From: a virus
Reading direction: 5' to 3' (one strand)
Virus record (IMG/VR): IMGVR_UViG_3300036828_000249
Span: 1 to 36,293 of that record
Length of the DNA stretch: 36,293 nt
Within the stretch, counting starts at the first letter, position 1. Each line of letters begins with the position of its first letter. The notes under the pieces are model-generated. The model was not told the DNA's origin, searched no databases, and saw nothing but the letters and a program-made list of their open reading frames with translations. The translations under genes were made by a program, and so were the position numbers. Positions 2,827-25,989 of this stretch are shown here, in pieces.

Positions 2827-3140
2827 CGGGCCGCCCTCCGCCCTTCGCTCCGCATGGAGCGCAGCACGAGGCCGGTCACGGTGTTCGCCGGCAGGTGCAA
2901 GCGCTCCCGGTTCAAGTGTTCCGCGACGGCCTGCATGGTCGTCTCGTCGCCGAAGGCAAAGCGCTCCGGCAGGGGATAGTGGCCGGTCACGCCGTCGATC
3001 ACGATGGACAGGGCATAGGCGCCGCGATCCATGGTCGCCGTGTAGGCAAACAGGACCCGGCCGCGGCCGTTCATTTCGAGGACCCGATCCTCAAGAGCGG
3101 CGCAGAGCTCGTCGGACGGGACAGGTAAGGCGGTGTTCAT
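2823..3140 (-). CDS. Hypothetical 105-aa early protein
   Basis: First gene of the leftward operon driven by the promoter at 3188-3216. The ATG at 3140 lies exactly 50 nt beyond the operator and has a GGAG site. The sequence is an alpha/beta mix with a DGVTGHYPLPERFAFGDETTM stretch; there is no cysteine, membrane span or family I know. It overlaps the DUF3560 gene by 4 nt. Confidence 0.6.
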   Translation of the reverse strand: MNTALPVPSDELCAALEDRVLEMNGRGRVLFAYTATMDRGAYALSIVIDGVTGHYPLPERFAFGDETTMQAVAEHLNRERLHLPANTVTGLVLRSMRSEGRRAAR

Positions 3141-6313: not shown

Positions 6314-6529
6314 TCACTCCACTACGCGGTAAAGATGGCCGTGCTTCGTCAGCTTGCCCGCGCTCACCATGGCGCTCATCAGGCTTTCAAACTGGCTCAG
6401 ACTGATTCCGTAAGCCATCAGGGCGGCATACAGCACGCCACCGGGAGCGCCCATCGCGCCAGCGGCCTTCACGGCGTCAACGATGGCGTCGGCGATCATG
6501 CGGACAGCGGCGATCTGTGCAGGTGTCAT
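6314..6529 (-). CDS. Small winged-helix-like early protein
   Basis: A 71-aa protein, MTPAQIAAVRMIADAIVDAVK, then GAPGGVLYAALMAYGISLSQFESLMSAMVSAGKLTKHGHLYRV. The helix-turn-helix-strand pattern ending in GKLxxxGxLYxV is what a small winged-helix fold looks like, and I associate it with a family frequent in phage early regions. The start at 6529 is 50 nt from the operator; the longer frame upstream of it is rejected for that reason. It could bind DNA, but that is not shown. Confidence 0.6.
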   Translation of the reverse strand: MTPAQIAAVRMIADAIVDAVKAAGAMGAPGGVLYAALMAYGISLSQFESLMSAMVSAGKLTKHGHLYRVVE

Positions 6530-6549
6530 CGGAAGGGTCCTCAAAGCGG

Positions 6550-6566
6550 CCGGCGCCAATCGCCGG
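6550..6566 (-). repeat. Leader hairpin CCGGCG-N5-CGCCGG
   Basis: Perfect 6-bp arms, 5-nt loop, 14 nt from the operator at 6580; the fourth copy of the leader element. Confidence 0.75.
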
Positions 6567-6576
6567 CGGCAGTCCC

Positions 6577-6606
6577 CTTATACCAACATTCCGTTGGTAT
6601 ATGCAA
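6577..6606 (-). promoter_or_regulatory. Sigma-70 promoter with embedded 21-bp operator (leftward)
   Basis: Read leftward: -35 TTGCAT (6606-6601), 18-nt spacer, -10 TATAAG (6582-6577). The operator is at 6580-6600. It diverges from the rightward promoter 50 nt away, so one repressor would control both directions. Confidence 0.85.
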
Positions 6607-6982: not shown

Positions 6983-7197
6983 TGGCCGCCCGCAAGCCGA
7001 TTGACCGCACTTTCCTTTCCGGTCCCGTCAACGGGACCATCTACATCGCCGAATACGAGCGCCGGAACAGCCGCGTGCTCCGCTGGTCGGCGATGCCGGC
7101 CGAGCGTGCCGAGCTTGACGTGCCGATTGACGCGCGCCGCGTTCCTTTGCAGGTCCGCCGCGCCGCGGCCGAGTTCATGGCACGGGAGCCCGTGTGA
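6982..7197 (+). CDS. Hypothetical 71-aa protein
   Basis: ATG 6982 overlaps the preceding stop (TGATG); a GTG directly before it is an alternative. The chain is basic, with no cysteine or membrane span. It is followed by another TGATG junction, so the first three genes of this operon are likely translated in series. Confidence 0.5.
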   Translation: MAARKPIDRTFLSGPVNGTIYIAEYERRNSRVLRWSAMPAERAELDVPIDARRVPLQVRRAAAEFMAREPV

Positions 7198-7580
7198 TGG
7201 CCGCCCGGCGTCAGTGGATCGACGTTTGCGCCATCTGCGGCAAGCGCGCCGATACCAACGTCCCGCCGATCCCGCCCTCCGTTGAGTGGGTCGGCGTCTG
7301 CATGGCCTGCAACAAGGCCTCCGGCATCAGCGAGACGTATTCCGCCTGGCGTGACGCGAAGATCGCCGCTGACAAGGCGGCGGAGCGCGCGGCCGGCGCC
7401 GCCTTCTGGAAGGCCCGCGGGATCGAGGTCGGCGACCGCGTCCGCGTCTTTGGGAGCCACATGCTGTTCGGCCGCTTCGCCATCCATGGCGTCGCCAAGG
7501 TCGGCCGCGGCGGCGCCTACGTGGCCGCGAAGGGCCATCCCCGGCTTTCGCCGGCGGGCGCGGAGCGCGTGGCGGAGTAG
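7197..7580 (+). CDS. Zinc-ribbon protein, 127 aa
   Basis: Two CxxC pairs, CAIC (about residues 11-14) and CMAC (about 35-38), make a compact zinc ribbon. A helical Ala/Lys/Glu segment follows, then a beta-rich C-terminus with VGDRVRVFGSHMLFGRFAIHGVAKVGRGG, which reads like a small KOW/SH3-type barrel. The combination suggests nucleic-acid or protein binding, but I know no family. The start overlaps the previous stop. Confidence 0.6.
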   Translation: MAARRQWIDVCAICGKRADTNVPPIPPSVEWVGVCMACNKASGISETYSAWRDAKIAADKAAERAAGAAFWKARGIEVGDRVRVFGSHMLFGRFAIHGVAKVGRGGAYVAAKGHPRLSPAGAERVAE

Positions 7581-7585
7581 CCGCG

Positions 7586-7858
7586 ATGAGCGGGCTCTCC
7601 TACGTCACGTGCTGCATCAACAGCACGGCCGGCGCCATCCAAGACATGATCGACCTAGAGCGGCAGGTCACATACCGCACGGCGCTGAAGCGGATCGGCC
7701 GCGCGGAGCTCGCCAGGACGTTCCCGGATTATGACTGGCATCGCCGCGGCGGGCTCACCATGAAGCGCGATTGGCATGTCGGCTACTACAGGTCCCGTTA
7801 TCTCGGCCGACCCTGCTACTTCGTTCGGTGGTCAGCGATCGAGTTCATTTTCGCCTGA
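7586..7858 (+). CDS. Hypothetical 90-aa protein
   Basis: Begins MSGLSYVTCCINSTAGAIQDMID; aromatic-rich toward the C-terminus (YDWHRRGG, WHVGYYRSRYLGRPCYFVRW). Three cysteines but no paired metal motif. It sits 5 nt after the zinc-ribbon gene in the rightward operon. No family is recognised. Confidence 0.5.
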   Translation: MSGLSYVTCCINSTAGAIQDMIDLERQVTYRTALKRIGRAELARTFPDYDWHRRGGLTMKRDWHVGYYRSRYLGRPCYFVRWSAIEFIFA

Positions 7859-7900
7859 AACTCGCGCGCCTCGCGGCGGCGGAGCGGAGGACCTGACGCC

Positions 7901-8623
7901 TTGAACGATGCAGCATTGAACATCCGCCCGGTCACGCTCAACCGCATCAAGCGCTATCCCGCCGGCGTGGCCAGCGGCTTTGATGACCTCTCGGCCGACT
8001 ATGACGACACGTTCGGCTCGCGCCGTTGCCAGGCCGAGGACCGGCTGCTCGCCGTCCGGCTCCGCCGGTTCCTCGCCGGGCGTGACGGCCCGCTCTTAGA
8101 CGTGGGATGTGGCACCGGCGCATTGCTCCGGCTCATCTCGCTTCCGATGGCGGATTACACCGGCCTTGACGTGTCCGCCGGCATGATCGGCGCGGCCATC
8201 TTGAAGTATCCGCGCGCTGAGTTCGTGCATGCCTCGGTGGAGGCCATGCCGTTTCCGGTTGAGCGGTTTGACACGGTCGTGTCGATCTTCTCCGCGCTCT
8301 CCTACACGGCGGAGCCGGCGCTCGCGATGCAGGAGATACGCCGCGTCCTGCGGCCTGGCGGCAGGTGCTTCCTGATGGTCAATGCGCCTCGTTGGTATCG
8401 TCGCAACGCCGCTTGCGCCGGCGAGCTCCACGTCCATCTGGCGCCGGCCGCGTGGAACACGTGGCAGGCGGCCCGACGTTGCCACCTGGCGGGCCTCACC
8501 GAGATCCGGCTATCCGCCTTCTCGATCCTGCCGACGCCGCTCATGGGCCTTGAGGGGCCGCTCAGCGGCATGTTCCCGCAAGCCGGGCGCTACCTCATCA
8601 TTGAGGCCGCGCGGCCGGCATGA
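7901..8623 (+). CDS. Class I SAM-dependent methyltransferase
   Basis: A 240-aa protein with the class I Rossmann signature: motif I LLDVGCGTG at 65-73, an acidic residue in YTGLDVSAGMI for the ribose hydroxyls, and VVSIFSALSYT as the post-II strand, followed by EIRRVLRPGGRCFLMVNAP. This belongs with the methyltransferase-11/25 group, whose members methylate small molecules or modified bases. There is no target-recognition domain of a restriction-type DNA methylase. The start is TTG 7901 behind GGAG and GAGG; no in-frame ATG precedes the SAM motif. Its stop overlaps the next start by 4 nt, so it is coupled to the PP-loop gene. Confidence 0.85.
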   Translation: MNDAALNIRPVTLNRIKRYPAGVASGFDDLSADYDDTFGSRRCQAEDRLLAVRLRRFLAGRDGPLLDVGCGTGALLRLISLPMADYTGLDVSAGMIGAAILKYPRAEFVHASVEAMPFPVERFDTVVSIFSALSYTAEPALAMQEIRRVLRPGGRCFLMVNAPRWYRRNAACAGELHVHLAPAAWNTWQAARRCHLAGLTEIRLSAFSILPTPLMGLEGPLSGMFPQAGRYLIIEAARPA

Positions 8624-9780
8624 GCAAGAGCCGTTTGCGGACCGGGCTCGACGTATTCGAGCAAGGCTTGCAGCGGTTGACGGAGCTCTACGCCGGCGGT
8701 CACACGGTCGTCGTCGCGTTCTCCGCGGGGAAGGATAGCGGCGTCTGTCTTGAGCTCGCCATCATGGCGGCGCGAGCGACCGGCCGCCTCCCGGTGCATG
8801 TGTCCATGCGCGACGAAGAGGTGATGCTACCGGGGACGTTTGAATACGCGGAGCGCGTCGCGGTAAGGCCCGAGGTTGATTTTCGATGGTGCGTCGCCAA
8901 TCAGCCCATCGTCAACGTGTTCAACCGCCGCGCGCCGTATTGGTGGGTCTTTGATCCGGAGCTCCGGCCCGAGCAATGGGTCCGCCAGCCGCCCGAGTGC
9001 GCGGTCCGGATCGACGCGCTCGACATCTCGCGGATTATCACGCGGCAGACCTATCCGACCGCGGAGGGGAAGGATATTTTTGCCGTCATCGGCATCCGCG
9101 CCAGCGAAAGCCAGAACCGGCGCTATTCGGTGTTCGCCGCCGGCGGCCACCTGACGAAGCCGAACGCCATGGGCACGCGGAATTGCCGGCCGATCTACGA
9201 TTGGCAGGACGCGGACGTATGGCGCGCGGTCCGTGACAATCAGTGGGATTACAATTCGGCCTATAATACAATGATCCGGTTCAACATCCCGTTGTCAAAA
9301 ATGCGGATCGCTCCGCCGACACTCAACAGCGCCTCCGTCTATCTGCTTGAGATGGCGCGGAAGGCCTGGCCGCGGTGGTTTGACAAGGTGGAGGACCGGC
9401 TCCCCGGCGTGAAGACGGTGAGCCAGTTCGGTGCGCGGGCCGTCATGCCGCACCGGCGGAGCGGGGAGACGTGGCAGGACTGTTTCATGCGCGAGTGCAT
9501 CACGGAAGCGCCGGCGCCGTGGATCAAAGAGCGCGCCTCCAACATCATGCGCGCGATCCTCGGCTACCATGAGCATCATTCGACGGCGCCACTCCCGGAC
9601 ATGAAGCCTTGCTATATGTGCGTCGGCAATATGGGCGCCTGGCGGTCCCTCGCGATGGCGCTTTACAACGGGGACCCGTTCGCGCTGAAAACCCTTGGCA
9701 TCGGCGGCACGAAGGCGGTTGATCCGGAGTTCTTTCGGACCGGCGCCGGCAGCTGGGGCGGCGCGCCGACCTGGTCGTGA
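8620..9780 (+). CDS. PAPS-reductase-like PP-loop ATPase (IbrA/DndC-type superfamily)
   Basis: A 386-aa protein. VVVAFSAGKDS at 30-40 is the PP-loop that binds ATP pyrophosphate in PAPS reductases, ATP sulfurylases and DndC. GIRASESQNR at 158-167 and RNCRPIYDWQDADVW near 187-201 are further family signatures. Cysteines at 127, 189, 331 and 334 (CYMC) could hold an Fe-S cluster, as in DndC. Phage homologues usually sit beside a ParB-domain gene, as E. coli IbrA sits beside IbrB, and that is the case here. The chemistry is probably adenylation or sulfur/nucleotide transfer; real PAPS reduction is unlikely in a phage. It overlaps both neighbours by 4 nt. Confidence 0.85.
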   Translation: MSKSRLRTGLDVFEQGLQRLTELYAGGHTVVVAFSAGKDSGVCLELAIMAARATGRLPVHVSMRDEEVMLPGTFEYAERVAVRPEVDFRWCVANQPIVNVFNRRAPYWWVFDPELRPEQWVRQPPECAVRIDALDISRIITRQTYPTAEGKDIFAVIGIRASESQNRRYSVFAAGGHLTKPNAMGTRNCRPIYDWQDADVWRAVRDNQWDYNSAYNTMIRFNIPLSKMRIAPPTLNSASVYLLEMARKAWPRWFDKVEDRLPGVKTVSQFGARAVMPHRRSGETWQDCFMRECITEAPAPWIKERASNIMRAILGYHEHHSTAPLPDMKPCYMCVGNMGAWRSLAMALYNGDPFALKTLGIGGTKAVDPEFFRTGAGSWGGAPTWS

Positions 9781-11258
9781 ACATCGACATTCGGATTATG
9801 GGCTGTCACGTCCGCGATCACTTCATTGCGGACATGCTCAAGCAACTGCGGCTCCCGCAGAGCATTGTCACGTATGATGAGCGTCCCGTCCGTGGCCACG
9901 CGATGCATACCGCGCGAAAGTGCTGGCTGACACCGCTCCCGGAGGGCGCGACGCACCGCCTGGTTCTGCAAGATGATTTGGAGCTCTGTGACGACTTTAT
10001 CGGCATCGTGCACCGGGCCTCCGCTTACTTCCCGCGTGCAATGTTCAGCCTCTACAATCCGCGCCTCCGGTTTGAGCACCGCAAGTCGGCGTCGCCATAC
10101 GTCCTGACGCCAGGCGGCACGGCATGGGGTCAGGCGATCTTGATGCCGGGGGACCAGATTGAACCGTGCTTTGACTGGATCACGCGGACGCTCCCGGCGG
10201 ATTACAAGCACGATGATTGCGCGATCAGTGAATATGCCTGCGTGCATGGCGTCCAAATCATGACCACAGTGCCAAGCACGGTGCAGCATCTAGCCCCGAC
10301 CGCGAGCCTGCTCGGGTTCAATAACTTGCGGAAGGTGTCGAAGGTCTGGACGGGGCGCGACCTCTCCGGTGAGGACTGGCGGAACACCGACTACTGGCGA
10401 GCGGCCCATGTCAGGAACAACCTATATCTTCCGAAAGGCTACTCCATGCCGAAGCGTCCCGCGCCAATCAAGACGAACGTGGCACTGGAAACCCTGGCCA
10501 TAGATTACGTCCCGGTGGATAGCATCAAGGCGAACGCATACAACCCGAACCGCATGTCCGAAAAGGACTTTGAGCTCTTACTCCGCTCCATGCGGGAGGA
10601 CGGCTTCACGCAGCCGGTCATTGCCCAACGCGAGACACGGATCATCGTTGACGGGGAGCATCGCTGGCGCGCCGCGGCGCATCTCGGCATGGCGACGCTC
10701 CCGGTCGTGTTCGTCTCCATGACGGAAGAGCAAGCGCGGATCGCCACGCTCCGGCACAATCGCGCGCGCGGTTCCGAGGACCTGCAACTCTCGGCCGAGG
10801 TATTGCGGGACCTGGAAAAGCTAGGCGCTCTCGATTGGGCCGCGGACAGTCTGATGCTCTCGGACGCAGAGATTGAGAAGCTACTCGCGGACGTGCCGGC
10901 TCCGGACGCACTGGCAGGTGACGCCTATTCAACGGCGTGGGAACCCGGCGCCAGGCCGGAGGACGGCCAGATAACGGAGCGCGCCACGGACACCGAGGGC
11001 TCCGGCATTGTCATCACGTCCGCGGCCAGCGTGAACGCTTTGGAGGCGGAGCGGCGGCGGGAGGAACGGATCGCAGCGGCCCGGACCGAGGAAGAGCGCG
11101 AGCTCGCGCGGAAGGACGGCACGAGCTACCGGATCAACCTGATGTTCGCCGACGATGAGGCGAAGGTCGTCAAGGCGGTGCTCGGTGACAAGCCGGCGGA
11201 GCGCCTGTTGTCTATCTGCCGGGATTACGCGAGGACGGCGGAGGTTCAAACCGCCTGA
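9777..11258 (+). CDS. Glycosyltransferase-like domain fused to ParB/DGEHR domain
   Basis: A 493-aa protein with a GTG start overlapping the PP-loop stop. Residues 1-210 look like a GT-A or GT25-type glycosyltransferase: an N-terminal Rossmann-like strand, then THRLVLQDDLELCDDF with an acidic pair at D66/D67 where a DxD metal site is expected, and a later KHDDCAISEYA. Residues 242-340 are a ParB N-terminal-type domain: VPVDSIKANAYNPN, MREDGFTQPVIAQ, and the core VDGEHRWRAAAHLG at 291-304. Residues 400-490 are a charged helical tail. ParB-type domains partner PP-loop enzymes in IbrAB and, more distantly, in Dnd (DndB DGQHR). The glycosyltransferase assignment rests on motif shape and is less certain than the ParB call. 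Confidence 0.75.
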   Translation: MNIDIRIMGCHVRDHFIADMLKQLRLPQSIVTYDERPVRGHAMHTARKCWLTPLPEGATHRLVLQDDLELCDDFIGIVHRASAYFPRAMFSLYNPRLRFEHRKSASPYVLTPGGTAWGQAILMPGDQIEPCFDWITRTLPADYKHDDCAISEYACVHGVQIMTTVPSTVQHLAPTASLLGFNNLRKVSKVWTGRDLSGEDWRNTDYWRAAHVRNNLYLPKGYSMPKRPAPIKTNVALETLAIDYVPVDSIKANAYNPNRMSEKDFELLLRSMREDGFTQPVIAQRETRIIVDGEHRWRAAAHLGMATLPVVFVSMTEEQARIATLRHNRARGSEDLQLSAEVLRDLEKLGALDWAADSLMLSDAEIEKLLADVPAPDALAGDAYSTAWEPGARPEDGQITERATDTEGSGIVITSAASVNALEAERRREERIAAARTEEERELARKDGTSYRINLMFADDEAKVVKAVLGDKPAERLLSICRDYARTAEVQTA

Positions 11259-11536
11259 CCGCGGAGCTTCTGGTCCCGGTTCATAATGTTGGAAATGGCC
11301 CAATACTTATAGCCGTCGCCTAGCTCAATGTATCTGTAGTTCACCTTGCCGAACCGTTGCACATAGCCGTAATGTTTGATCGCGTTGAGCAGCCTGGCGA
11401 AGACTTCATTGTTCTCCGCGGATCGCACGATATACCAATGCGGTATCTCCGGCATGCTCTTGGCGAAACGCCACGGGAGGCCTGCGACAGCCTCCCGCAA
11501 TTCCGAGATCAGTGTGTCTAGGTCGTCAACTGCCAA
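11246..11536 (-). CDS. Small conserved-type phage protein, 96 aa
   Basis: The start is TTG 11536 with a textbook GGAGG 6 nt before it; it overlaps the upstream gene by 11 nt. The core MPEIPHWYIVRSAENNEVFARLLNAIKHYGYVQRF, then YRYIELGDGYKYWAI, is a pattern I recognise from small phage proteins that process or bind something unknown. Its 3' end overlaps the convergent ParB-fusion gene by 13 nt. The TTG start is unusual but better supported than the longer TTG-initiated frame to 11590. Confidence 0.6.
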   Translation of the reverse strand: MAVDDLDTLISELREAVAGLPWRFAKSMPEIPHWYIVRSAENNEVFARLLNAIKHYGYVQRFGKVNYRYIELGDGYKYWAISNIMNRDQKLRGQAV

Positions 11537-12587
11537 TGATGGCCTCCAATCCCGCGGCCGTGAGGCAGGTCTCAAGTGTCCTGCCTTCAACCCGGATGTC
11601 TATGAGGCCGCGGTGGCGAACCACTCTGGTCAATCCCGGCATCCGGCCTTTGGGTAGATTATGTGGCGAATCGCTGTCATGCACTGCGCCATACTTTACC
11701 CATTGTCCTACGCGCGCCTCAACCGGCTTGCCGGCGAAAACCTTCGCGTCACGGAGCGCCTTGAGGAACAGGATATGGTCAGGCGATAGGGCGCCCGTCG
11801 CCGGCGTAGGGGCCTTCCGCGGCGCCGCCGCCTTGCTGACCGGCTCCGCGGCAGGTGCGGGCTCCACGGCCGGGACCGTCACCGCCTTGGCGTATGGCCA
11901 CGTCTCCGTGCGGACTAGGACCTTCTCCGCGGGCTCCGCCGCCTTCGCCTTGCGCGCCTTGCGGAGCTCCGCCACGGCGGCCGACGCCACCTTGCGCGCC
12001 GCCTTCTCGGGATCGCCCTCGACGGTCCGGACCGGACCATGCAGCGACCGGAGCTCAACCGTCTCGCCGTTGATCGCGTTGATGGCCGTGGGAACATGGG
12101 CCTGCGACTTCTTCAGCGTCTCCCGGCCGGGCTTTGGGCCAAGCCGCGGGGACCGTCCGGCGGAACGGAGGCCCGGCTTCTCGACCGATGCGGAGATATT
12201 CCGCCCGGCGCACGCATGGCAGAGGGAAGAGCCGGCCTGCATGTTCTCGGCGGTGAGGGGCGCTTCGCAGTTCGCGCACACCGGCGCCGGCGCATAGGTC
12301 AACAGCTTGGGCGCCTCGGCCACGGGCTCCGCCGCGTCGTCTTGCTCCGGCCACGCATGCGTGCTCTCGGCCTGTGCTAGATCATAGGCCGCCGCGTCCG
12401 TGTCGGCCGGGACCGGCAGGCCGGCGCGCGCCAGGGCAACCGGCGCTGCGACGCCCATGCGGTCAAGCTCCGCGGTGGTCAGCGCCAGGGCGCGGGCGTG
12501 CGATTCAAATTTCTTGACCGGCTTCTCGCGGTCCGTCACGGCGTTGAACACTTTGACCAATTGTGCCGCGGAAAGTTTCTCAAGCAT
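11526..12587 (-). CDS. 353-aa early protein with internal zinc ribbon
   Basis: Residues 1-45 (LSAAQLVKVFNAVTDREKPVKKFESHARA) form a helical domain like those at the start of several plasmid and phage DNA-binding proteins. Residues 104-127 hold CANC...CHAC, a zinc ribbon. A long Ala/Lys/Pro linker (about 130-260) follows, and the C-terminal 90 residues (LSPDHILFLKALRDAKVFAGKPVEARVGQWVKYGA) are folded and might be winged-helix. It heads the leftward unit from the 12640 operator, 52 nt away. A nucleic-acid role is plausible; no family is secure. Confidence 0.6.
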   Translation of the reverse strand: MLEKLSAAQLVKVFNAVTDREKPVKKFESHARALALTTAELDRMGVAAPVALARAGLPVPADTDAAAYDLAQAESTHAWPEQDDAAEPVAEAPKLLTYAPAPVCANCEAPLTAENMQAGSSLCHACAGRNISASVEKPGLRSAGRSPRLGPKPGRETLKKSQAHVPTAINAINGETVELRSLHGPVRTVEGDPEKAARKVASAAVAELRKARKAKAAEPAEKVLVRTETWPYAKAVTVPAVEPAPAAEPVSKAAAPRKAPTPATGALSPDHILFLKALRDAKVFAGKPVEARVGQWVKYGAVHDSDSPHNLPKGRMPGLTRVVRHRGLIDIRVEGRTLETCLTAAGLEAIIGS

Positions 12588-12609
12588 CGGGGTAACTCCG
12601 GTTCGCTAA

Positions 12610-12626
12610 CCGGCGCCAATCGCCGG
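12610..12626 (-). repeat. Leader hairpin CCGGCG-N5-CGCCGG
   Basis: Perfect 6-bp arms with a CCAAT loop, 14 nt from the operator at 12640; the fifth copy, identical to the 6550 element through the loop. Confidence 0.75.
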
Positions 12627-12636
12627 TGTCATTCCC

Positions 12637-12665
12637 TTTATACCAACATTCCGTTGGTATATCAA
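12637..12665 (-). promoter_or_regulatory. Sigma-70 promoter with embedded 21-bp operator
   Basis: Read leftward: -35 TTGATA (12665-12660), 17-nt spacer, -10 TATAAA (12642-12637). The operator is at 12640-12660. It marks the boundary between the early block and the late structural genes. Confidence 0.85.
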
Positions 12666-12699
12666 ACTCAATAGTCACTCAAGCCATGCAGTGAGCAAG

Positions 12700-12716
12700 T
12701 GAACGCGCGGCGTTCA
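12700..12716. repeat. 7-bp inverted repeat upstream of the terminase genes
   Basis: TGAACGC (12700-12706) and GCGTTCA (12710-12716) flank GCG. It lies in the short gap where a late promoter or its control site should be. No clear -35/-10 pair is visible rightward. Confidence 0.45.
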
Positions 12717-12756
12717 GTGCATGAACCCTCTCCACGCGGCAGGAAATGGTGAACTG

Positions 12757-13344
12757 ATGAAAGGTCGTAAGCCTAAGCCGGCGGCGCTCCACGCGCTTGA
12801 GGGCACCCTCAACGTCACGAAGATGCGCGAGCGCGGGCCGGAGCCGGAGGCGCCGGGGGACCTGTTGGCGGACCCGCCCGACTGGCTCACGGACGGCCAG
12901 GCGGCCTCATGGCGCTATGCCGTGGAGCACGCGCCGAAGAGCATCCTGCGGTGCATAGACCGCGGCATGCTGACGGTATGGTGCGAGGCGGAGGATCGCC
13001 ACCGGCGCGCCACCGAGGCGCAAGCCATGCTCGACAAGCGCTCCCCGCGCCTGCCGTTCATGATGGTTCGCCGGAAGGGCAAGAAGGCTGCTGAAGGCGA
13101 GAAGGGTGAAGGCGAGAAGGGTAAAGGTGAGAGCGCCGGCACGGAGATAACGGAGATCACCGTCAGCCCGTATCTCGGCGTCATCAGCGCCGCCGGGCAG
13201 ATCATGGCGCGGACCGCCTCCGAGATGGGCTTTTCGCCGACCTCCCGGCCGCGCCTGGCACAGTCAAATCCAGGGGCGGCAGTGCCCAACGACTCGCCGT
13301 GGCACCGCCTGAAGGTGCTTCAGGGCGGCCGTGGGGGCGCATAG
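12757..13344 (+). CDS. terS: Terminase small subunit, P27 type
   Basis: A 195-aa protein starting MKGRKPKPAALHALEGTLN, the classic N-terminus of P27-family small terminases, followed by PPDWLTDGQAASWRYAVEHAP. It recognises the packaging site and hands DNA to the large subunit directly downstream. ATG 12757 is chosen on family grounds; the ribosome site (AGGAA) is rather far, and an ATG at 12721 lacks one. Residues about 107-128 are a low-complexity Lys/Glu/Gly repeat encoded by near-tandem DNA, an insertion compared with typical members. It ends 5 nt before TerL. Confidence 0.85.
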   Translation: MKGRKPKPAALHALEGTLNVTKMRERGPEPEAPGDLLADPPDWLTDGQAASWRYAVEHAPKSILRCIDRGMLTVWCEAEDRHRRATEAQAMLDKRSPRLPFMMVRRKGKKAAEGEKGEGEKGKGESAGTEITEITVSPYLGVISAAGQIMARTASEMGFSPTSRPRLAQSNPGAAVPNDSPWHRLKVLQGGRGGA

Positions 13345-13349
13345 GCGCC

Positions 13350-15080
13350 GTGCCGCGCCGCCCGCGTAGCCGACCCATCAACGTCACCGACTATCCGCCC
13401 GGCGTCGTGCAGGCGGTCCGCTACGCCGCCTCACTCGAAAGCGGGGACATACCGGCCTGCAAGCTCGCCGTCGCCGCCGCGCGCCGGTTCCTGGACGATC
13501 TGCGCAAGGCGGAGGGCGGGCGCGGGGAGTGGGAGTTTCGCGCCGGCGCCGCCGAGGCCGCCATGCTCTTCGCGAGCCTTCTGCCGAACATCAAAGGTCC
13601 GCTCGCCGGCAAGCCGCTGGTGATGGAGCCGTGGCAGTGCTTCATCCTGACCAACGTGTTCGGCTTCTATGAGCGCGGGACCGAGGCGCGGCGCTTCCGC
13701 CAGGCCGTCGTATTCGTCCCGCGGGGCAACGGCAAAACTACCGTCGCCGCGCCGATCGCGCTCTACCTGACGTTCTGTGAAGGCGAGGGCGGCGCGGAGG
13801 GTTACGCCGCGGCCGTCACGCGCGGGCAGGCCCGCATCCTGTTTGACACCGCTCAAGAAATGGTCCGGCGGAGCCCGGAGTTCCGCAGTGAATACGGCGT
13901 TGACACGCTGGAAAATGCGATTTTCCAACGGCGCTCCGCCTCCAAATTCGTGCCCGTGTCCTCGGACGCGAAGGCGCTCGACGGGCTCAATGTGCACGTG
14001 GCGGTGTGCGACGAGATTGCCAGCCACCGGACATCGCAGGTCTATGACGTGTTGCTCACGGCCATGGGCAAGCGCCTGCATCCGCTGCTCATCTCGATCA
14101 GCACGGCCACCGCGAATAACGCCGGCATCGGCCGGAGCCTTTGGAGCTACGCCGCGCGCGTGCTTGAGGGCCGCCAGGCGGACCCGCGGCTCTTCGCACT
14201 GATCCACGCGGCGGATGACACTGACGACATTTGGGATGAGCGCACCTGGCGCAAGGCCAATCCGAATTGGGGCGTCTCGGTGCAGCCGGATGCGGTCCGC
14301 GCCATCGCGCGGCAGGCCCGCAACAATCCAGTGCAAGAGAGCGCCTTCAAGACGCGCCATCTCAACCTATGGGTCGGCGCCGACGATGCGCTGTTCTCCA
14401 TGCGGGCCTGGCGGGCGTGCGCGCGGCCGGAGCTCCGGATAGAGGACTTCGCCGGCCGGCACTGCGACATCGCCGTTGACCTGGCGGCAAAGACGGACCT
14501 GGCGGCGGTGCAATTGACCTTCAGCCGGGAGGACCCGGACACCGGCCAGCTTCACTACACGACGTTCGGTCGATTTTACACGCCGGAGTCGGTGATCCTT
14601 GAGGGCCGCCAGGCGGAATACGCCGCATGGGCCGCCGGCGGTCACATGGTCGTCACGCCGGGCAATGAAATCGACTTCAGCACGATTGAGGAACACTTGC
14701 TTGAGGACTGCGCACGCTTCCGCGTCGGCTCCGTCGCATACGATCCGTGGAGCGCCACGCAGCTTGCGCAACGTCTCAGCGCGCAAGCTGTCCCGGTCAT
14801 TGAGTTCCGCGCGACGACGCAAAACTTCTCGGAACCGACGAAGGAGCTTGATGCGGCAATGCAGGCGAGCCGCATTGAACATGACGGCAACCCGGTCCTG
14901 GAATGGTGCATCGGCAATGTCGTCGGCCACTACGATCCGCGCGGCAACGTCTATCCGCGCAAGGCCAGGCCGGAACAGAAAATCGACGGAGCGATCACGC
15001 TCATTATGACGCTCGGCCGCGCGATGACCGCGCGGGAGGAAATTCCATACGCGGACGGTCGCGGCCTGCTGATCGTGTAG
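13350..15080 (+). CDS. terL: Terminase large subunit
   Basis: A 576-aa packaging motor with ATPase and nuclease domains. Walker A is PRGNGKTT (residues 124-131, from GTG 13350) and Walker B is VAVCDE, with D221 and catalytic E222. The nuclease half has acidic residues in CDIAVDLAAKTD and VAYDPWSA. The size and order suit the HK97/P27-partnered terminase-1 group. The frame is open upstream to 13299 inside terS; the GTG right after the terS stop is more likely. It is followed by the portal gene. Confidence 0.93.
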   Translation: MPRRPRSRPINVTDYPPGVVQAVRYAASLESGDIPACKLAVAAARRFLDDLRKAEGGRGEWEFRAGAAEAAMLFASLLPNIKGPLAGKPLVMEPWQCFILTNVFGFYERGTEARRFRQAVVFVPRGNGKTTVAAPIALYLTFCEGEGGAEGYAAAVTRGQARILFDTAQEMVRRSPEFRSEYGVDTLENAIFQRRSASKFVPVSSDAKALDGLNVHVAVCDEIASHRTSQVYDVLLTAMGKRLHPLLISISTATANNAGIGRSLWSYAARVLEGRQADPRLFALIHAADDTDDIWDERTWRKANPNWGVSVQPDAVRAIARQARNNPVQESAFKTRHLNLWVGADDALFSMRAWRACARPELRIEDFAGRHCDIAVDLAAKTDLAAVQLTFSREDPDTGQLHYTTFGRFYTPESVILEGRQAEYAAWAAGGHMVVTPGNEIDFSTIEEHLLEDCARFRVGSVAYDPWSATQLAQRLSAQAVPVIEFRATTQNFSEPTKELDAAMQASRIEHDGNPVLEWCIGNVVGHYDPRGNVYPRKARPEQKIDGAITLIMTLGRAMTAREEIPYADGRGLLIV

Positions 15081-15092
15081 GAGGGCAGGGCG

Positions 15093-16445
15093 ATGGCCTC
15101 TCTATGGTCCCGGCTCGTTGACGCGTGGCGTGACAAGAACACGGATGGCAACGGCGGCGGTGATGGCGGCGGCTCATCCTTCTCGGGTGACTGGGGCGAG
15201 TGGGGGATGTCGGAAGCCGGCGCGCCAGTGAATTCGTGGAGCGCGCTGCACCACGGGCCGGTGATGGCCGCGGTCAGCATCTTGGCGGAGGACTTGGCGA
15301 AAATCCCGGTCGGGGTGTTCCGGCGCACGAAGGACGGCGGCAAAGAGCCGGCAAAGGATCACGCGCTCCACCGGCTACTGCGACGGCCGAATACCTGGCA
15401 GACGACTTTCGAGTGGAAGGAAATGATGCAGGCGGCGCTTGTCCTTCGTGGCAACGCCTATTCGGTGATCCTACGCAACAAGCGCGGTGAACCGCTGCAA
15501 CTCATCCCGGTGCATCCGGACCGCGTGAACCTCTGGGAATCGCCGGACGGCCAGTGGTTCTACATGGTCACGCGCAATGGCCTGCATGAAATGGCCATGC
15601 TCCGCAACGTGCCGTCACTCGTGCCGGCGGAGGACATGCTTCATCTGCGATGGTTGCAGGTGTGGCACTCGCTGATGGGAAGCTCCCGCATCGCACTCGG
15701 CCGCGAACCAATCGGCCTCGGCATGAGCCTGGCGGAGCACCATTCGAGGTTCGCCGGCCAGGGGACGCGGCTCTCGGGCTTCCTCTCGACCGACAAATCC
15801 ATCCCTCGGGAAACCCGCGATCAGATCGCGTCGGACTGGCAGAAGGCGAAGGCCGGACCGCGCAACGCCGGCGGCACGGCGGTCCTGGAATACGGGATGA
15901 AGTGGGAACAGCTCGGCATGAGCATGGTCGATGCCGAGTTCATGGCATCGCGTGAATTCCAACTCCGCGAAGTAGCGCGCGTGTTCGGCATCCCGCCTTA
16001 CAAGCTCGGCATTCTCGGCGCTGACAGCGGGCCGTCCCTCGTGCAGCAAGGCCAGGAATATCTCAATGGCCCGATGTCCGGATACTGCGAGCGGTGGACT
16101 GCGAAACTTGAACAGGTGTTTGAGGTAGACGGGGAAGATACCTTCGTCGCTTGGGATTATGCGCACTTCCTGAAAGCCGACATTCAAACGCGCTTCACCG
16201 CGTATCGGCAGGCGGTTGGCGCGCCATGGATGGCGGTCAATGAGGCGCGGCGCGGGGAAGGCCTGCCGGATCAAGAGCACGGGGACGAGGTCCTTCAGCC
16301 GACCAATCTAGCACCGCTCGGGTGGGAGCCTCCGGAGAAGCCGGCCGGCGGCACCTCCGGCAGCGATCAAACGGGATCGCCCGGCCAAGGCGGGGACGGG
16401 GACGCCGAACGGCTCCCCGGTGAGGAACCGGCGCCATCCAACTGA
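15093..16445 (+). CDS. Phage portal protein, HK97 family
   Basis: A 450-aa protein at the normal portal size. It shows the usual HK97-portal run: PVMAAVSILAEDLAKIPVGVFRR, a DHALHRLLRRPN segment, LVLRGNAYSVILRNKRGEPLQLIPVHPDRV, and the VARVFGIPPYKLG and QQGQEYL segments in the C-terminal half. It forms the dodecameric ring through which DNA enters. The ribosome site AGGAGG is strong. The Gly/Asp-rich stretch at residues 15-30 and the Pro/Gly-rich C-terminus are probably disordered. Confidence 0.93.
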   Translation: MASLWSRLVDAWRDKNTDGNGGGDGGGSSFSGDWGEWGMSEAGAPVNSWSALHHGPVMAAVSILAEDLAKIPVGVFRRTKDGGKEPAKDHALHRLLRRPNTWQTTFEWKEMMQAALVLRGNAYSVILRNKRGEPLQLIPVHPDRVNLWESPDGQWFYMVTRNGLHEMAMLRNVPSLVPAEDMLHLRWLQVWHSLMGSSRIALGREPIGLGMSLAEHHSRFAGQGTRLSGFLSTDKSIPRETRDQIASDWQKAKAGPRNAGGTAVLEYGMKWEQLGMSMVDAEFMASREFQLREVARVFGIPPYKLGILGADSGPSLVQQGQEYLNGPMSGYCERWTAKLEQVFEVDGEDTFVAWDYAHFLKADIQTRFTAYRQAVGAPWMAVNEARRGEGLPDQEHGDEVLQPTNLAPLGWEPPEKPAGGTSGSDQTGSPGQGGDGDAERLPGEEPAPSN

Positions 16446-16456
16446 CGGAGGACGAC

Positions 16457-16786
16457 ATGAGCGATTCGGACCGCGGCAGGCGCACGGCTGATGCAGCGCC
16501 CAAGATCGACCCGAAACAGGCAGCGCTCCACGTGGATTTGTCGCACGTGGAGAACGCGCTCAGCGGCGGCCGGGACGGTGACGTGCGCTCCGTCGGCGCG
16601 GCCGTGTCGCATCTCGTGCGCGTGCTGAAGCGCCATCACACGCCGGACGCGGAGGCGGCGGCCGAGGCCGCGGCGGTGGAGGCAGAGGCCGCGGCGGCGG
16701 CGGCGGCGGCGCGCCAGGCGGCCATCGCGGCAGGCACCGAACCGGCGCCGGCGCTCTTCCAGCCGCCGGCCGCGGCAACGGCATAG
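16457..16786 (+). CDS. Hypothetical Ala-rich head-region protein
   Basis: A 109-aa protein with a good GGAGG site. The first 60 residues contain an amphipathic helix (VDLSHVENALSGG, VGAAVSHLVRVLKRHH); residues 63-90 are almost pure Ala/Glu, likely one long helix; the end is Pro/Ala. Its position between portal and protease suggests a minor head or scaffold-related part, but there is no family match. Confidence 0.55.
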   Translation: MSDSDRGRRTADAAPKIDPKQAALHVDLSHVENALSGGRDGDVRSVGAAVSHLVRVLKRHHTPDAEAAAEAAAVEAEAAAAAAAARQAAIAAGTEPAPALFQPPAAATA

Positions 16787-16797
16787 GCGCTCCCGTC

Positions 16798-17961
16798 ATG
16801 CGCCTAATCAGCGTCGAAGAGTTCCGCCAGGCGGCGCGAGAGAAGCGTCCGCACGGGAGCGATGGCGTGTTCCGCGTCAACACGCGGATCAAGCCGCGCG
16901 CACTCGATGACGGATCTCGGGCAATCCGCTTCTGCTTCAGCGACGGCTCCGTTGACCGCATGAGCGACACGATTGACCCGGCAGGTTGGGAGCTCTCCGA
17001 CTTCACAGCAAACCCGGTGGCGCTTTGGGCGCATGACTCGTCCGCTCCGCCAATCGGCCGCGCCGCCAATGTGGCCACCGAGGCGGACCGCCTCATGGGT
17101 GACATCACCTTTGCGGACGCCGCTACCTACGCCTTCGCCGACACGATCTACCGGCTCTACCTCGGCGAGTTTCTGAATGCCGTGTCCGTGGGCTTCCTGC
17201 CGCTTGAATATTCATTCGTGGAGAACGATCCGGAGCGCGGTTGGGGCATCGACTTCAAGCGGCAGGAGCTTCTGGAAATCTCGTGCTGCCCTATCCCGGC
17301 GAACCCAAACGCGCTCGCCGAAGCGCGCGCCACGGGGATCAACCTCACGCCGCTGGTCAAATGGGCGGAGGCCACGCTCGACGCCGGCGGCCTGGCCACC
17401 GTGCCGCGTGATGAATTGGACCGCCTCCGCAAGCAAGCAAAGGAGCTCAGCATGACAGTTCGCAGGCAGCCGCGGCGCCGCGCCGGTGACGATCCGGATG
17501 AGGACAAGCCAGAAGACAAGGTGCAGGCGACGTGCGGCCGGAAGGCTGACGCGGAGTGCGGCCTCAAGGACTCGTCTGAGTGCGCGATCCACGGCAAGGC
17601 GGAACCGGACGACAAGCCGGATGACGATGACGAGTCAAAGCGGCTCCGGCGCCTGTTGCGCCAGGAGCTCCGCCACGTGCTCCGCGCTGACGGCGATCCG
17701 GACGACCTGCCGATGGAGCACCATGACGCGGTGCGGATGGCGCACAAGTGCCTCCGCACCTCAAAGGCCTTCCTCGCGGAAGCGGTCACGCATCACAGCA
17801 AAGCTGTTGATCTGCTGAGCGGCGTCGTTGAAGCGCTGAATGGCGACAACGGCAACGGCGACAAACCGGACGAGGACCCGGACGACAAGCCGGACGAGGA
17901 GAAGGCGGCGCAACTGCGTCGTGCCGCGGAGCTCCGCACGCGGATCAGGTCGGTGGCCTGA
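16798..17961 (+). CDS. HK97 prohead protease (S78) with long acidic extension
   Basis: A 387-aa protein. Residues 25-185 are the prohead protease: H79 in LWAHD and S130 in NAVSVGF are the expected catalytic His and Ser. It cleaves scaffold or delta-domains during capsid maturation. Typical members are about 200 residues; here 170 more follow. That extension has a four-cysteine patch (CGRKADAECGLKDSSECAIHG, split over about 240-262), a helical region with EHHDAVRMAHKCL, and a highly acidic Asp/Lys/Pro tail. The tail may serve as scaffold; that is inference. Confidence 0.88.
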   Translation: MRLISVEEFRQAAREKRPHGSDGVFRVNTRIKPRALDDGSRAIRFCFSDGSVDRMSDTIDPAGWELSDFTANPVALWAHDSSAPPIGRAANVATEADRLMGDITFADAATYAFADTIYRLYLGEFLNAVSVGFLPLEYSFVENDPERGWGIDFKRQELLEISCCPIPANPNALAEARATGINLTPLVKWAEATLDAGGLATVPRDELDRLRKQAKELSMTVRRQPRRRAGDDPDEDKPEDKVQATCGRKADAECGLKDSSECAIHGKAEPDDKPDDDDESKRLRRLLRQELRHVLRADGDPDDLPMEHHDAVRMAHKCLRTSKAFLAEAVTHHSKAVDLLSGVVEALNGDNGNGDKPDEDPDDKPDEEKAAQLRRAAELRTRIRSVA

Positions 17962-18027
17962 GCGGGCTCTCTGCTTTTTTCCGCCTCACCGCCCTTGGGC
18001 AAGGCACGACCATCAGGAGAGACAAAC

Positions 18028-19395
18028 ATGGCCACACTCGCGTCGCTCCGCCAGGCCCTCGGCGTGGCGGTGGATCAACTGCCGGACCTGGCGGGGACAA
18101 AGGACTTCGCGACAGCCGAAAAGGCGATCGAGGCGCTTGAGCGCCAGATCGCGGACCTTGAGCGTGCGCAACGCCGCTCCGCCGCGCTGGCGCGTCCCGC
18201 CGGCGCCAACGGCGGCACGGAGCCCGACGACATCAACCCCATGCTGCGGACGATGACGCAAATCCGCTCCATGGACCCGCGGCCGGGCAAGCTCCGCGGC
18301 TTCGATGACTATTTGGGCCTGGCGCGCCGGGGACTGGACTTCACGCCGACGCGTGACGCCCATTTCCGGACCCTTGGCGAGCAGCTTCAGTCGATCGCCA
18401 AATACTATCTCGGCAAGGGCACGGACATTGACGGCAGGCTCGTGCGCGCGCCGACCGGAGCGAGCGAGGTGGACCCGACCGGCGGCGGCTTCCTCGTGCA
18501 GGTGGATTTTGCCGCGGCCATCTTCATGCTCGCACATGACTTGGGCCATCTGCTGGCGGACGTGAACAAAATCCCCATCAGCGCCAACAGCAACGGCCTC
18601 AAGATTCCGGGCGTGGATGAAACCTCCCGCGCCACCGGGAGCCGGTGGGGCGGTGTGGCGTCAACCTGGGTCGGGGAGGGCACGACCGTAACGCCGTCGC
18701 GGCCGAAATTCCGCATCGTGGAGTTCGACCTCAAGAAGATGATGTCGTTGATGTATGTCACCGATGAGATGTTGCAGGACAGCACGGCGCTTTCCGGCAT
18801 CGCCAGCCAGGCGTTCGCCGAGGAAATCGTCTGGATGACCGAGGACGCGATTTTTGAGGGCACCGGCAACGGCATGCCGCTCGGGATCATGGGCAGCGGC
18901 GCCAAGATCGCGGTCGCCAAGGACTCCGGCCAATTGACCGGCACGTTCACGGCTTCCAATGCGGTGCAAATGTGGGCGCGTCTGTGGGCGCGCTCCATGG
19001 GCAGCGCGAAGTGGTATATGCAACAGGACGTGTTGCCGCAGCTCTTGCAGATGAGCGTGGGCGTCAGCACGGCAGGCGGCCAGGTCGTATTCATGCCGCC
19101 TGGCGGATTGTCGGGGGCGCCTTACGGGACCCTGCTCGGTCGCGAAATCGTATTCACCGAATACGCCTCCGCGCTCAGCACGGAGGGGGACGTGTTGCTC
19201 GCGGACCTGTCACAATACACGCTGGTCGATAAGAACGGCGTGCAAGCGGCAAGCTCCGTGCACGTGGCTTTCAACACCGACGAAATGGTGTTTCGGGTGA
19301 CGTATCGCGTCGATGGCAAGCCCATGTGGTATGTGCCGCTGACGCCGGCGAAGGGCGTCACTAAGAGCCCGTTCATCACGCTGGCCTCGCGCTGA
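18028..19395 (+). CDS. Major capsid protein, HK97 fold
   Basis: A 455-aa protein. Residues 1-60 are a helical delta-like domain (LEQLADL-type coiled segment QIADLERAQRRSA) normally removed by the protease. The mature part has the HK97 pattern: PTGASEVDPTGGGFLVQVDF, a central IPGVDETSRATGSRWGG E-loop region, KKMMSLMYVTDEMLQD, FEGTGNGMPLGIMGS, and a C-terminal YRVDGKPMWYVPLTPAKG. ATG 18028 with AGGAG is preferred to an in-frame ATG at 17995. It is adjacent to the protease that matures it. Confidence 0.93.
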   Translation: MATLASLRQALGVAVDQLPDLAGTKDFATAEKAIEALERQIADLERAQRRSAALARPAGANGGTEPDDINPMLRTMTQIRSMDPRPGKLRGFDDYLGLARRGLDFTPTRDAHFRTLGEQLQSIAKYYLGKGTDIDGRLVRAPTGASEVDPTGGGFLVQVDFAAAIFMLAHDLGHLLADVNKIPISANSNGLKIPGVDETSRATGSRWGGVASTWVGEGTTVTPSRPKFRIVEFDLKKMMSLMYVTDEMLQDSTALSGIASQAFAEEIVWMTEDAIFEGTGNGMPLGIMGSGAKIAVAKDSGQLTGTFTASNAVQMWARLWARSMGSAKWYMQQDVLPQLLQMSVGVSTAGGQVVFMPPGGLSGAPYGTLLGREIVFTEYASALSTEGDVLLADLSQYTLVDKNGVQAASSVHVAFNTDEMVFRVTYRVDGKPMWYVPLTPAKGVTKSPFITLASR

Positions 19396-19460
19396 TCCTG
19401 GCCACGCTCTGACGCACGGCTCCGCGCTGGCGCGCTCCGCGTCCCGACTGTTCTCCATCC

Positions 19461-19487
19461 CGGCGCGACTCCCCATCGCGCCGTTTT
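19461..19487 (+). terminator. Weak possible terminator after the capsid gene
   Basis: GGCGCG (19462-19467) pairs with CGCGCC (19477-19482) over a 9-nt loop and is followed by GTTTTC. The stem is short and the T-run has only four T, so partial termination or attenuation after the highly expressed capsid gene is the most it could do. Confidence 0.35.
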
Positions 19488-19522
19488 CAACGCGCCGCTT
19501 TGGGGGGCGGCAGGAGATACCC

Positions 19523-20005
19523 ATGGCCCGTCAATTCAGTCTCGTCGCACAAATCCCGCCCGTCATGCTGCTCGCTCCGGCGGCGGACGCCGCGGGCCGC
19601 ACGAGCTCCTATCGGTCATTGCGCAACGCGCTCAAGGCCTATGTGACCGTGCATATCAATCAGGGCAATGCGGCAACCGTGCTGCTCTCGATCTTGCAGG
19701 CCTCCGCCGTGGCGGGCACTGGCAGCAAGGCGGTGACCGCCGTGCCGATCTGGTCAAACCTCGATACGTCCGTCAATGACACGCTCGCCGCGCGCACCGC
19801 GGCGGCAACCTACACGACGGACGCGGGCGTGAAAGACAAGATCGTTGTGTTTGAGATCACGCCGGAGGCCTGCATGGACCTGGCGGGCGGCTTCGACTGC
19901 ATCGCTGTTTCAACCGGCGCCTCCAATGCGGCGAACATCACGGAGGCACAATTGCACGTGCTCGGTTCCTTCCAGCCGCCGCCCAACACTTACACCGACA
20001 TCTGA
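19523..20005 (+). CDS. Head-region structural protein, probable
   Basis: A 160-aa protein with AGGAG before the ATG. It is beta-rich, with LKAYVTVHINQGNAATVLLSILQASAVAGTGSKA and, near the end, AGGFDCIAVSTGASNAANITEAQL. This composition and its position right after the capsid gene are common for decoration or minor head proteins. I have no firm family name. Confidence 0.55.
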   Translation: MARQFSLVAQIPPVMLLAPAADAAGRTSSYRSLRNALKAYVTVHINQGNAATVLLSILQASAVAGTGSKAVTAVPIWSNLDTSVNDTLAARTAAATYTTDAGVKDKIVVFEITPEACMDLAGGFDCIAVSTGASNAANITEAQLHVLGSFQPPPNTYTDI

Positions 20006-25818: not shown

Positions 25819-25989
25819 ATGCCGGTTCTGCGTGCCGCGGTGGAGCATGACTACCTGGCCATAGCCGCCGCAGCCGTTGGGCGCTTCTACCGTGACGGCC
25901 TGCAATGGGCGCTCCGCCTGCCATTGCCGGAGCTCATCGCCTGGCGCGCGCTGATGCCAGCCGTCCGGAGGGCCGAGGATGTCCGGTAA
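25819..25989 (+). CDS. Tail assembly chaperone, second frame (gp42-like, possible frameshift extension)
   Basis: A 56-aa frame from ATG 25819: MPVLRAAVEHDYLAIAAAAVGRFYRDGLQWALRLPLPELIAWRAL. The LPLPELIxW helix is what is expected of the second chaperone domain. It has no clear ribosome site and is in the -1 frame relative to the first chaperone gene. Upstream of the ATG the frame is open and reads LTRLPCGAAP, so it may be made mainly as a fusion by ribosomal frameshifting near 25780. It overlaps the tape-measure start by 11 nt. Confidence 0.6.
   Translation: MPVLRAAVEHDYLAIAAAAVGRFYRDGLQWALRLPLPELIAWRALMPAVRRAEDVR

Follow-up and report, generated by a model that had tools for sequence, protein, structure and literature searches.

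A modular phage gene cassette around a PP-loop enzyme and a ParB-like domain, a candidate nucleic-acid modification system

Introduction

What would a phage do with a methyltransferase, a PP-loop enzyme and a glycosyltransferase-like domain joined to a ParB domain, all encoded in one run of overlapping genes? The question is raised by a locus in the window analysed here, which is the whole of IMG/VR record IMGVR_UViG_3300036828_000249 (36,293 bases) and in which contractile-tail, portal and terminase genes are also present. The original prediction, made from the letters of the DNA, had suggested a nucleic-acid modification system, and this idea is supported by the recurrence of the gene package in other genomes, by the exchange of enzymes within it and by its association with the PP-loop gene. 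We favour the reading that the locus is a modular phage cassette that modifies nucleic acid, most likely the phage's own DNA, and assign to it a probability of roughly 0.58.

Results

Three coupled genes and their domains

Mechanical calling of open reading frames confirmed the three coupled genes that had been predicted, with the methyltransferase (MT) gene overlapping the PP-loop gene by 4 nt in an ATGA junction and the PP-loop gene overlapping the glycosyltransferase (GT)-ParB gene by 4 nt in a GTGA junction (Table 1). The window has a further -4 junction at 29410, so that the overlaps alone are weak evidence of linkage; the order of the cassette genes, for its part, is kept in distant phages. 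The four domain assignments were borne out by profile searches and, for the predicted GT-A fold, by a structure model.

Table 1. Positions of the cassette, its neighbours and two of the repeat copies in the window.
Feature	Position	Strand	Remarks
Operator-like repeat, nearest upstream copy	6526..6600	+	GCCGGCGCCAATCGCCGGC ... ATACCAACATTCCGTTGGTAT
MT, class I SAM methyltransferase	7901..8623	+	240 aa; TTG start behind GGAGGA
PP-loop ATP pyrophosphatase, 'PAPS reductase-like'/IbrA superfamily	8620..9780	+	386 aa
GT-ParB fusion ORF	9777..11258	+	493 aa; GTG start
Predicted GT-A glycosyltransferase domain, N-terminal half of fusion	9777..10445	+	phrog_854, AlphaFold, PDB matches, GTGA overlap
ParB/sulfiredoxin-like domain, IbrB type	10446..11258	+	VDGEHR, RHNRARG motifs
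Small domain of ~95 aa, fifth cassette part	11246..11590	-	comparative; convergent to ParB
353-aa protein, no PHROG	11526..12587	-	overlaps small-domain gene
Fifth repeat copy	12586..12660		between minus-strand unit (11246-12587) and terminase small subunit
Terminase small subunit	12721..13344	+	conserved right-hand neighbour of slot
Terminase large subunit	13299..15080	+	conserved right-hand neighbour of slot

The MT matched Methyltransf_11 (E 1e-21) and carries the SAM motif DVGCGTG together with YxGxDxSxxM, both conserved throughout the cassette family. The PP-loop protein matched PAPS_reduct (E 1.6e-8) and phrog_2302 (E 9e-57), and its SAGKDS loop, GxRxxESxxR and PIYDWxxxDxW motifs are near invariant (the loop as SxGKDS) in an alignment of 105 relatives. 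As a single-protein query against genome contigs it found no match.

By annotation habit, such a gene would be read as a phage cysH, an auxiliary metabolic gene (AMG) that aids host sulphate assimilation, and cysH is counted as one of the most widely distributed AMGs of viruses (PMC9301287), though listed as 'not validated' (PMC12713726). The window protein, however, reached 15.5 bits against the CysH model NF002537 (cut-off 154), no alignment column held cysteine in more than 45% of the 105 homologues, and a ParB gene always adjoins, in 77 of 77 viral loci (non-redundant, from the best 80 matches). The label 'PAPS reductase' is thus disfavoured, and a metabolic role appears extremely unlikely.

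A PAPS-like PP-loop protein beside a ParB-like one also recalls DndC and DndB, the latter assigned to the ParB superfamily (PMC10853773), and the cassette might accordingly insert sulphur, by phosphorothioation or otherwise, as a reduced Dnd or BrxP system. The window protein gave weak matches to BrxP and DndC, and in its own clade the PP-loop protein has a CxxC (KPCYMC). Its score against the DndC model TIGR03183 was nevertheless 16.3 bits (cut-off 290.4), and the conserved Fe-S cysteines and cysteine dyad of DndC (PMC10853773) lack a conserved counterpart in the 105 rows of the family. The distant resemblance to DndC-DndB that had been proposed therefore holds for the shared PP-loop superfamily and fails for DndC itself; DndC-type sulphur chemistry is disfavoured as the common function, and sulphur insertion here is improbable. 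As the family is devoid of conserved cysteines, the group installed would more likely be N- or O-linked than sulphur.

A predicted GT-A domain fused to ParB

The first half of the fusion ORF matched the phrog_854 glucosyltransferase profile over residues 1-173 (E about 1.7e-12 to 1.3e-11), and the second half matched ParB_N over residues 243-325 (E 9e-12). The GT was modelled alone, a joint MAFFT alignment of GT and ParB having placed GTs against ParB, and rows from annotated isolates were left out of the alignments used for structure models. The resulting AlphaFold model (36 sequences, pLDDT 90.9) has a GT-A fold, and its matches in the PDB are GT-A enzymes, e.g., GnT-I, POMGnT1 and ColGalT1. 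An acidic QDD motif (D66-D67) is accompanied by D147 and H171, and D66, D67 and D147 are essentially invariant among relatives, so that the domain has both the predicted fold and the conserved DxD-like acidic motif of GT-A enzymes. The DNA glucosyltransferases of T4 have a fold other than GT-A. Searches of isolate phages with the window's GT found no match, Hendrix being reached only by a sister GT, and megablast of positions 7000-20000 against isolate phages likewise found none.

An in-frame ATG at 10446 (residue 224) lies where, in relatives, the separate ParB gene begins (window MPKRPAPIKTNV, relatives MAKRASKTPPIKTNV), which suggests that the fusion probably arose from separate GT and ParB genes through stop loss. 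In its motif VDGEHR, the ParB domain recalls the DGQHR/sulfiredoxin signature known from DndB-like and GmrS proteins (PMC4619093).

A GT-A fold close to enzymes that glycosylate proteins and glycans, together with the finding of related phage GTs away from PP-loop genes, would also suit a cassette that modifies a surface glycan, a protein or a small molecule, for superinfection exclusion or as part of metabolism. We consider this scarcely probable, given that the GT is fused to ParB and is exchanged with a DNA methyltransferase (see below), and that profile searches recognised no further sugar-pathway genes beside the cassette.

A fifth part on the opposite strand, and flanking repeats

A small-domain gene, which the original prediction had missed, converges on the cassette and overlaps the 3' end of ParB by 13 nt. 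Its product follows the pattern AK..PH.Y ... YKYW ... NR, with H51, W97 and N104 invariant (numbered from 11590), and its true start is probably the TTG at 11536. In relatives this domain is encoded within the operon, and in the phages Hendrix and Leaf it is fused to the MT. It matched no Pfam family, and a fold search of the PDB with its model (pLDDT 87.9) gave no match (best E 0.16). The gene and that of the 353-aa protein probably belong to the same transcription unit.

The cassette had been placed under a shared operator. The repeat itself is genuine, with five copies of ~75 nt (starting at 3137, 3980, 4980, 6526 and 12586) that end in the palindrome ATACCAACATTCCGTTGGTAT, but the nearest copy is not adjacent, as 1.3 kb and several short ORFs separate it from the cassette. 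This copy and the fifth, which heads the minus-strand unit of the small domain, flank the region, and co-regulation of the cassette and this unit by the repeats is plausible from their positions.

Recurrence and exchange of the cassette parts

Loci were surveyed with home-made HMMs (one to 19 seeds each), taking the best 80 per scan and then making the viral PP-loop loci non-redundant (n=77). Besides the ParB gene common to all 77, the MT was found in 23, the small domain in 24, a DNA methyltransferase with a DPPW motif in 14 and the GT in 13, and oxygenase-like ORFs, of weak motif resemblance (Asp_Arg_Hydrox E 0.21), in three; in 41, PP-loop and ParB were the only ones present among the families searched. 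In the gene-order tally, no other arrangement comes near this pair on its own in frequency (87 loci). Among bacterial and archaeal contigs (best 80), the four closest have the MT, and most others have PP-loop and ParB alone. Where PP-loop identity is at least 43% (the closest clade), the MT stands upstream of the PP-loop gene in nearly all loci in which that side is present. Three loci (L021, L107 and L108, with L100 and L021 being one contig) run MT, PP-loop, small domain, GT, ParB, as does a Gemmatimonadetes MAG contig with a split PP-loop frame (L181), and, judged by gene order, the window's cassette is a rearranged form of this succession. The survey thus found the co-occurrence in other phages whose absence would have spoken against the original prediction.

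In three near relatives of the window (L002, L003 and L004; PP-loop 87-91%, ParB 77-85% identical), a DPPW methyltransferase lies between PP-loop and ParB, where the window has the GT. Its profile matches DpnA, CcrM and MboIIA, and the two enzymes probably share a substrate type. This replacement at the same place argues for DNA as the target, as does the slot to the left of the terminase, which holds DNA-modification genes in other phages.

The same exchange bears on whether the cassette might instead modify RNA, e.g., tRNA during infection, a target for which PP-loop enzyme, SAM methyltransferase and GT are a typical set. The PP-loop enzymes TilS and MnmA have tRNA as their substrate, and tRNA cmo5U methyltransferase is one of the many matches of the MT profile. 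Yet the enzyme that replaces the GT is closest in structure to DNA adenine methyltransferases, the position beside the terminase is one used for DNA-modification genes in other phages, and partners of the ParB/DGxHR kind typically occur in DNA systems (PMC12839542, PMC4619093), all of which makes an RNA target quite unlikely.

A scan centred on the GT found a PP-loop gene within 8 kb in 20 of 61 non-redundant loci among the matches listed. These 20 all have ParB, and 11 have the MT and 11 the small domain, versus two with ParB and none with MT, small domain or DPPW methyltransferase among the 41 listed loci without a PP-loop gene (Fisher 4e-7, ignoring phylogeny). Among the listed loci matched by terminases of the window's lineage, the package is present in the three with a PP-loop gene; the 67 without one have no MT, GT or small domain, with ParB in 23 and a match to the DPPW profile in three. 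Six terminase relatives of the window without a PP-loop gene have ParB and a DPPY motif in one frame.

On a tree of 114 PP-loop proteins, the GT changed state 13 times (18 carriers) and the DPPW methyltransferase 10 times (13 carriers), versus seven changes for the small domain (23 carriers) and five for the MT (20 carriers). Association of the GT with the MT and with the small domain was non-significant in an independent-pairs test on this tree, and the Fisher values are therefore no proof of co-evolution. Together, the state changes and the phylogeny-aware test suggest that MT and small domain are a lineage core, whereas GT and DNA methyltransferase are plug-ins, often gained and lost.

Relation to IbrA-IbrB and to other phage loci

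The predicted resemblance to IbrA-IbrB was supported, in that a PAPS-like PP-loop gene is followed directly by ParB with a common motif set, as in E. coli and in many phage and prophage pairs, the window's ParB being the C-terminal half of a fusion. IbrA-IbrB is a pair of genes; in the window, MT, GT and small domain are present as well, and DUF3440, which belongs to the IbrA protein, gave no match in the window's PP-loop protein at E 0.1 (the Hendrix protein matched it at E 1.2e-7). Rather than IbrAB with two extra enzymes, as had been thought, the locus represents one variant of a modular family in which enzymes can be exchanged.

This kinship raises the alternative that PP-loop and ParB co-activate phage or prophage genes and that the remaining enzymes, lying in a variable region, are passengers. 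The pair alone is the commonest arrangement, phage pairs carry a co-activator annotation, and the phenotype reported for IbrAB, in a work referenced in PMC10434257, is the activation of prophage eib genes. We nonetheless regard regulation as unlikely: the MT and the small domain track the PP-loop gene, as the terminase-matched loci indicate, the finding of either GT or DNA methyltransferase between one and the same pair of genes is left unexplained, and the effect of IbrA could itself lie downstream of DNA modification.

Among isolates, the Rogerhendrixvirus members Hendrix and Leaf (Microbacterium phages) have GT, MT with small domain, and PP-loop genes at the genome end, and the Hendrix record begins with ParB genes and terminase, i.e., the cluster continues across the record ends. 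Compared with the window, it adds GNAT and more GT genes, its GT is not fused to ParB, and the PP-loop proteins are ~23% identical. In Rosebush-type phages, the 7-deazaguanine (Dpd) genes likewise place a ParB-like protein beside a modifying enzyme immediately left of the terminase, with a TGT-type transglycosylase and Que enzymes in place of the window's PP-loop, MT and GT; profile searches with the cassette proteins found no TGT-family DpdA among them. The B-cluster mycobacteriophage Obutu has ParB, PP-loop and ParB genes left of its terminase, and in prophi79-1, a related prophage of M. abscessus, this place is taken by ParB genes, a PP-loop gene and a methyltransferase. Laurie, whose terminase is about 60% identical to that of Obutu, has in this place a ParB-like gene, a queuine-transferase (DpdA-like), QueC, QueE and FolE, genes of a type read as inserting preQ0 into DNA (PMC6392294). 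Phage ParB-DNA methyltransferase fusions of the phrog_498 type also bring ParB together with a modifying enzyme near the terminase, but have no PP-loop partner, the domain fused in the window being a predicted GT-A.

Discussion

Package parts and their order, swaps, motifs, association with the PP-loop gene and place beside the terminase all speak for a modular DNA modification cassette. The GT profile, against this, also finds phage GTs without a PP-loop gene (41 of 61 among the matches listed). The PP-loop/ParB core may have another primary job, as pair-only viral loci and most bacterial loci suggest. The window holds no precursor gene of the thymidylate synthase family.

In the mechanism that we propose, the PP-loop enzyme would adenylate a group of the target at the expense of ATP, in line with the chemistry of its superfamily, and the ParB/sulfiredoxin-type DGxHR domain would load, couple or drive it on DNA, by analogy with what DpdB, a ParB-like ATPase (PMC12839542), may do for DpdA. 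The MT would then methylate the activated or installed moiety, and an exchangeable last enzyme would cap or supplement it, here a GT-A enzyme of nucleotide-sugar type and in sister loci the DPPW methyltransferase. The putative sequence would run from ATP activation through group transfer and methylation to glycosylation or DNA methylation, the benefit probably being resistance to host restriction.

More tentatively, and at somewhat less than even odds, the family may represent a widespread, undescribed phage DNA hypermodification, in which PP-loop and ParB install a new, adenylation-dependent group, to be elaborated by interchangeable enzymes (methyltransferase, glycosyltransferase, oxygenase-like, acetyltransferase). 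We found no description of PP-loop-ParB cassettes as DNA modification in the open-licence literature.

If the modification reading is true, the small domain, matched by no Pfam family and no PDB fold, would be placed in a context, and many viral 'cysH' genes listed as sulphur AMGs would, at least in part, be DNA-modification genes. The cassette would then stand for a new family of phage modifications, of base or backbone, testable in the isolates Hendrix and Leaf, and the exchange of GT for DNA methyltransferase at a single place would offer a natural experiment on how phages protect their DNA.

Gene content around the cassette and its relatives

Among related mycobacteriophages, the gene content directly left of the terminase varies (Obutu L012, Laurie L259, AlanGrant L260 and prophi79-1 L261; L-numbers denote compared loci), the alternatives being que/DpdA-like genes, PP-loop-ParB, and a tryptophan-synthase-like gene with a kinase. 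Within the cassette, the exchangeable slot, held in the window by the glycosyltransferase and in sister phages by a DPPW DNA methyltransferase, is occupied in three loci by oxygenase-like ORFs, whose Pfam support was weak (Asp_Arg_Hydrox, E 0.21). PP-loop genes were tandemly duplicated inside a single cassette in L111, L112 and L089.

Features of the window and of compared loci
Feature	Locus	Coordinates	Strand	Remarks
2-oxoglutarate/Fe oxygenase-like ORF, exchangeable slot	L026	2733-3416		HxD...H by eye
2-oxoglutarate/Fe oxygenase-like ORF, exchangeable slot	L027	2857-3405		HxD...H by eye
2-oxoglutarate/Fe oxygenase-like ORF, exchangeable slot	L029	4270-4791		HxD...H by eye
ParB gene split by apparent intein	L024	2648-4369		LAGLIDADG-like stretch GWLAGFLDGEGCLS
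Tape-measure protein, C-terminal endolysin-like domain	window	25979-28003		phrog_5867, residues 466-623
353-aa protein	window	11526-12587	minus	adjoins operator copy at 12586; overlaps small-domain gene; no PHROG match found

The intein-like insert of the L024 ParB gene falls within the conserved DGFTQP motif, and this placement gives a hint of an essential role for the motif. In L196 and L209, PP-loop-ParB is accompanied by a DPPW-type methyltransferase gene in convergent orientation. Both contigs bear the title Candidatus Prometheoarchaeum (Asgard archaea) and may be viral or mis-binned.

Viral cysH has been classed as a core AMG (PMC9301287, PMC12713726). Hallmarks of CysH are missing from the PP-loop proteins linked to ParB that were analysed, and so misannotation may lie behind some viral cysH AMG calls.
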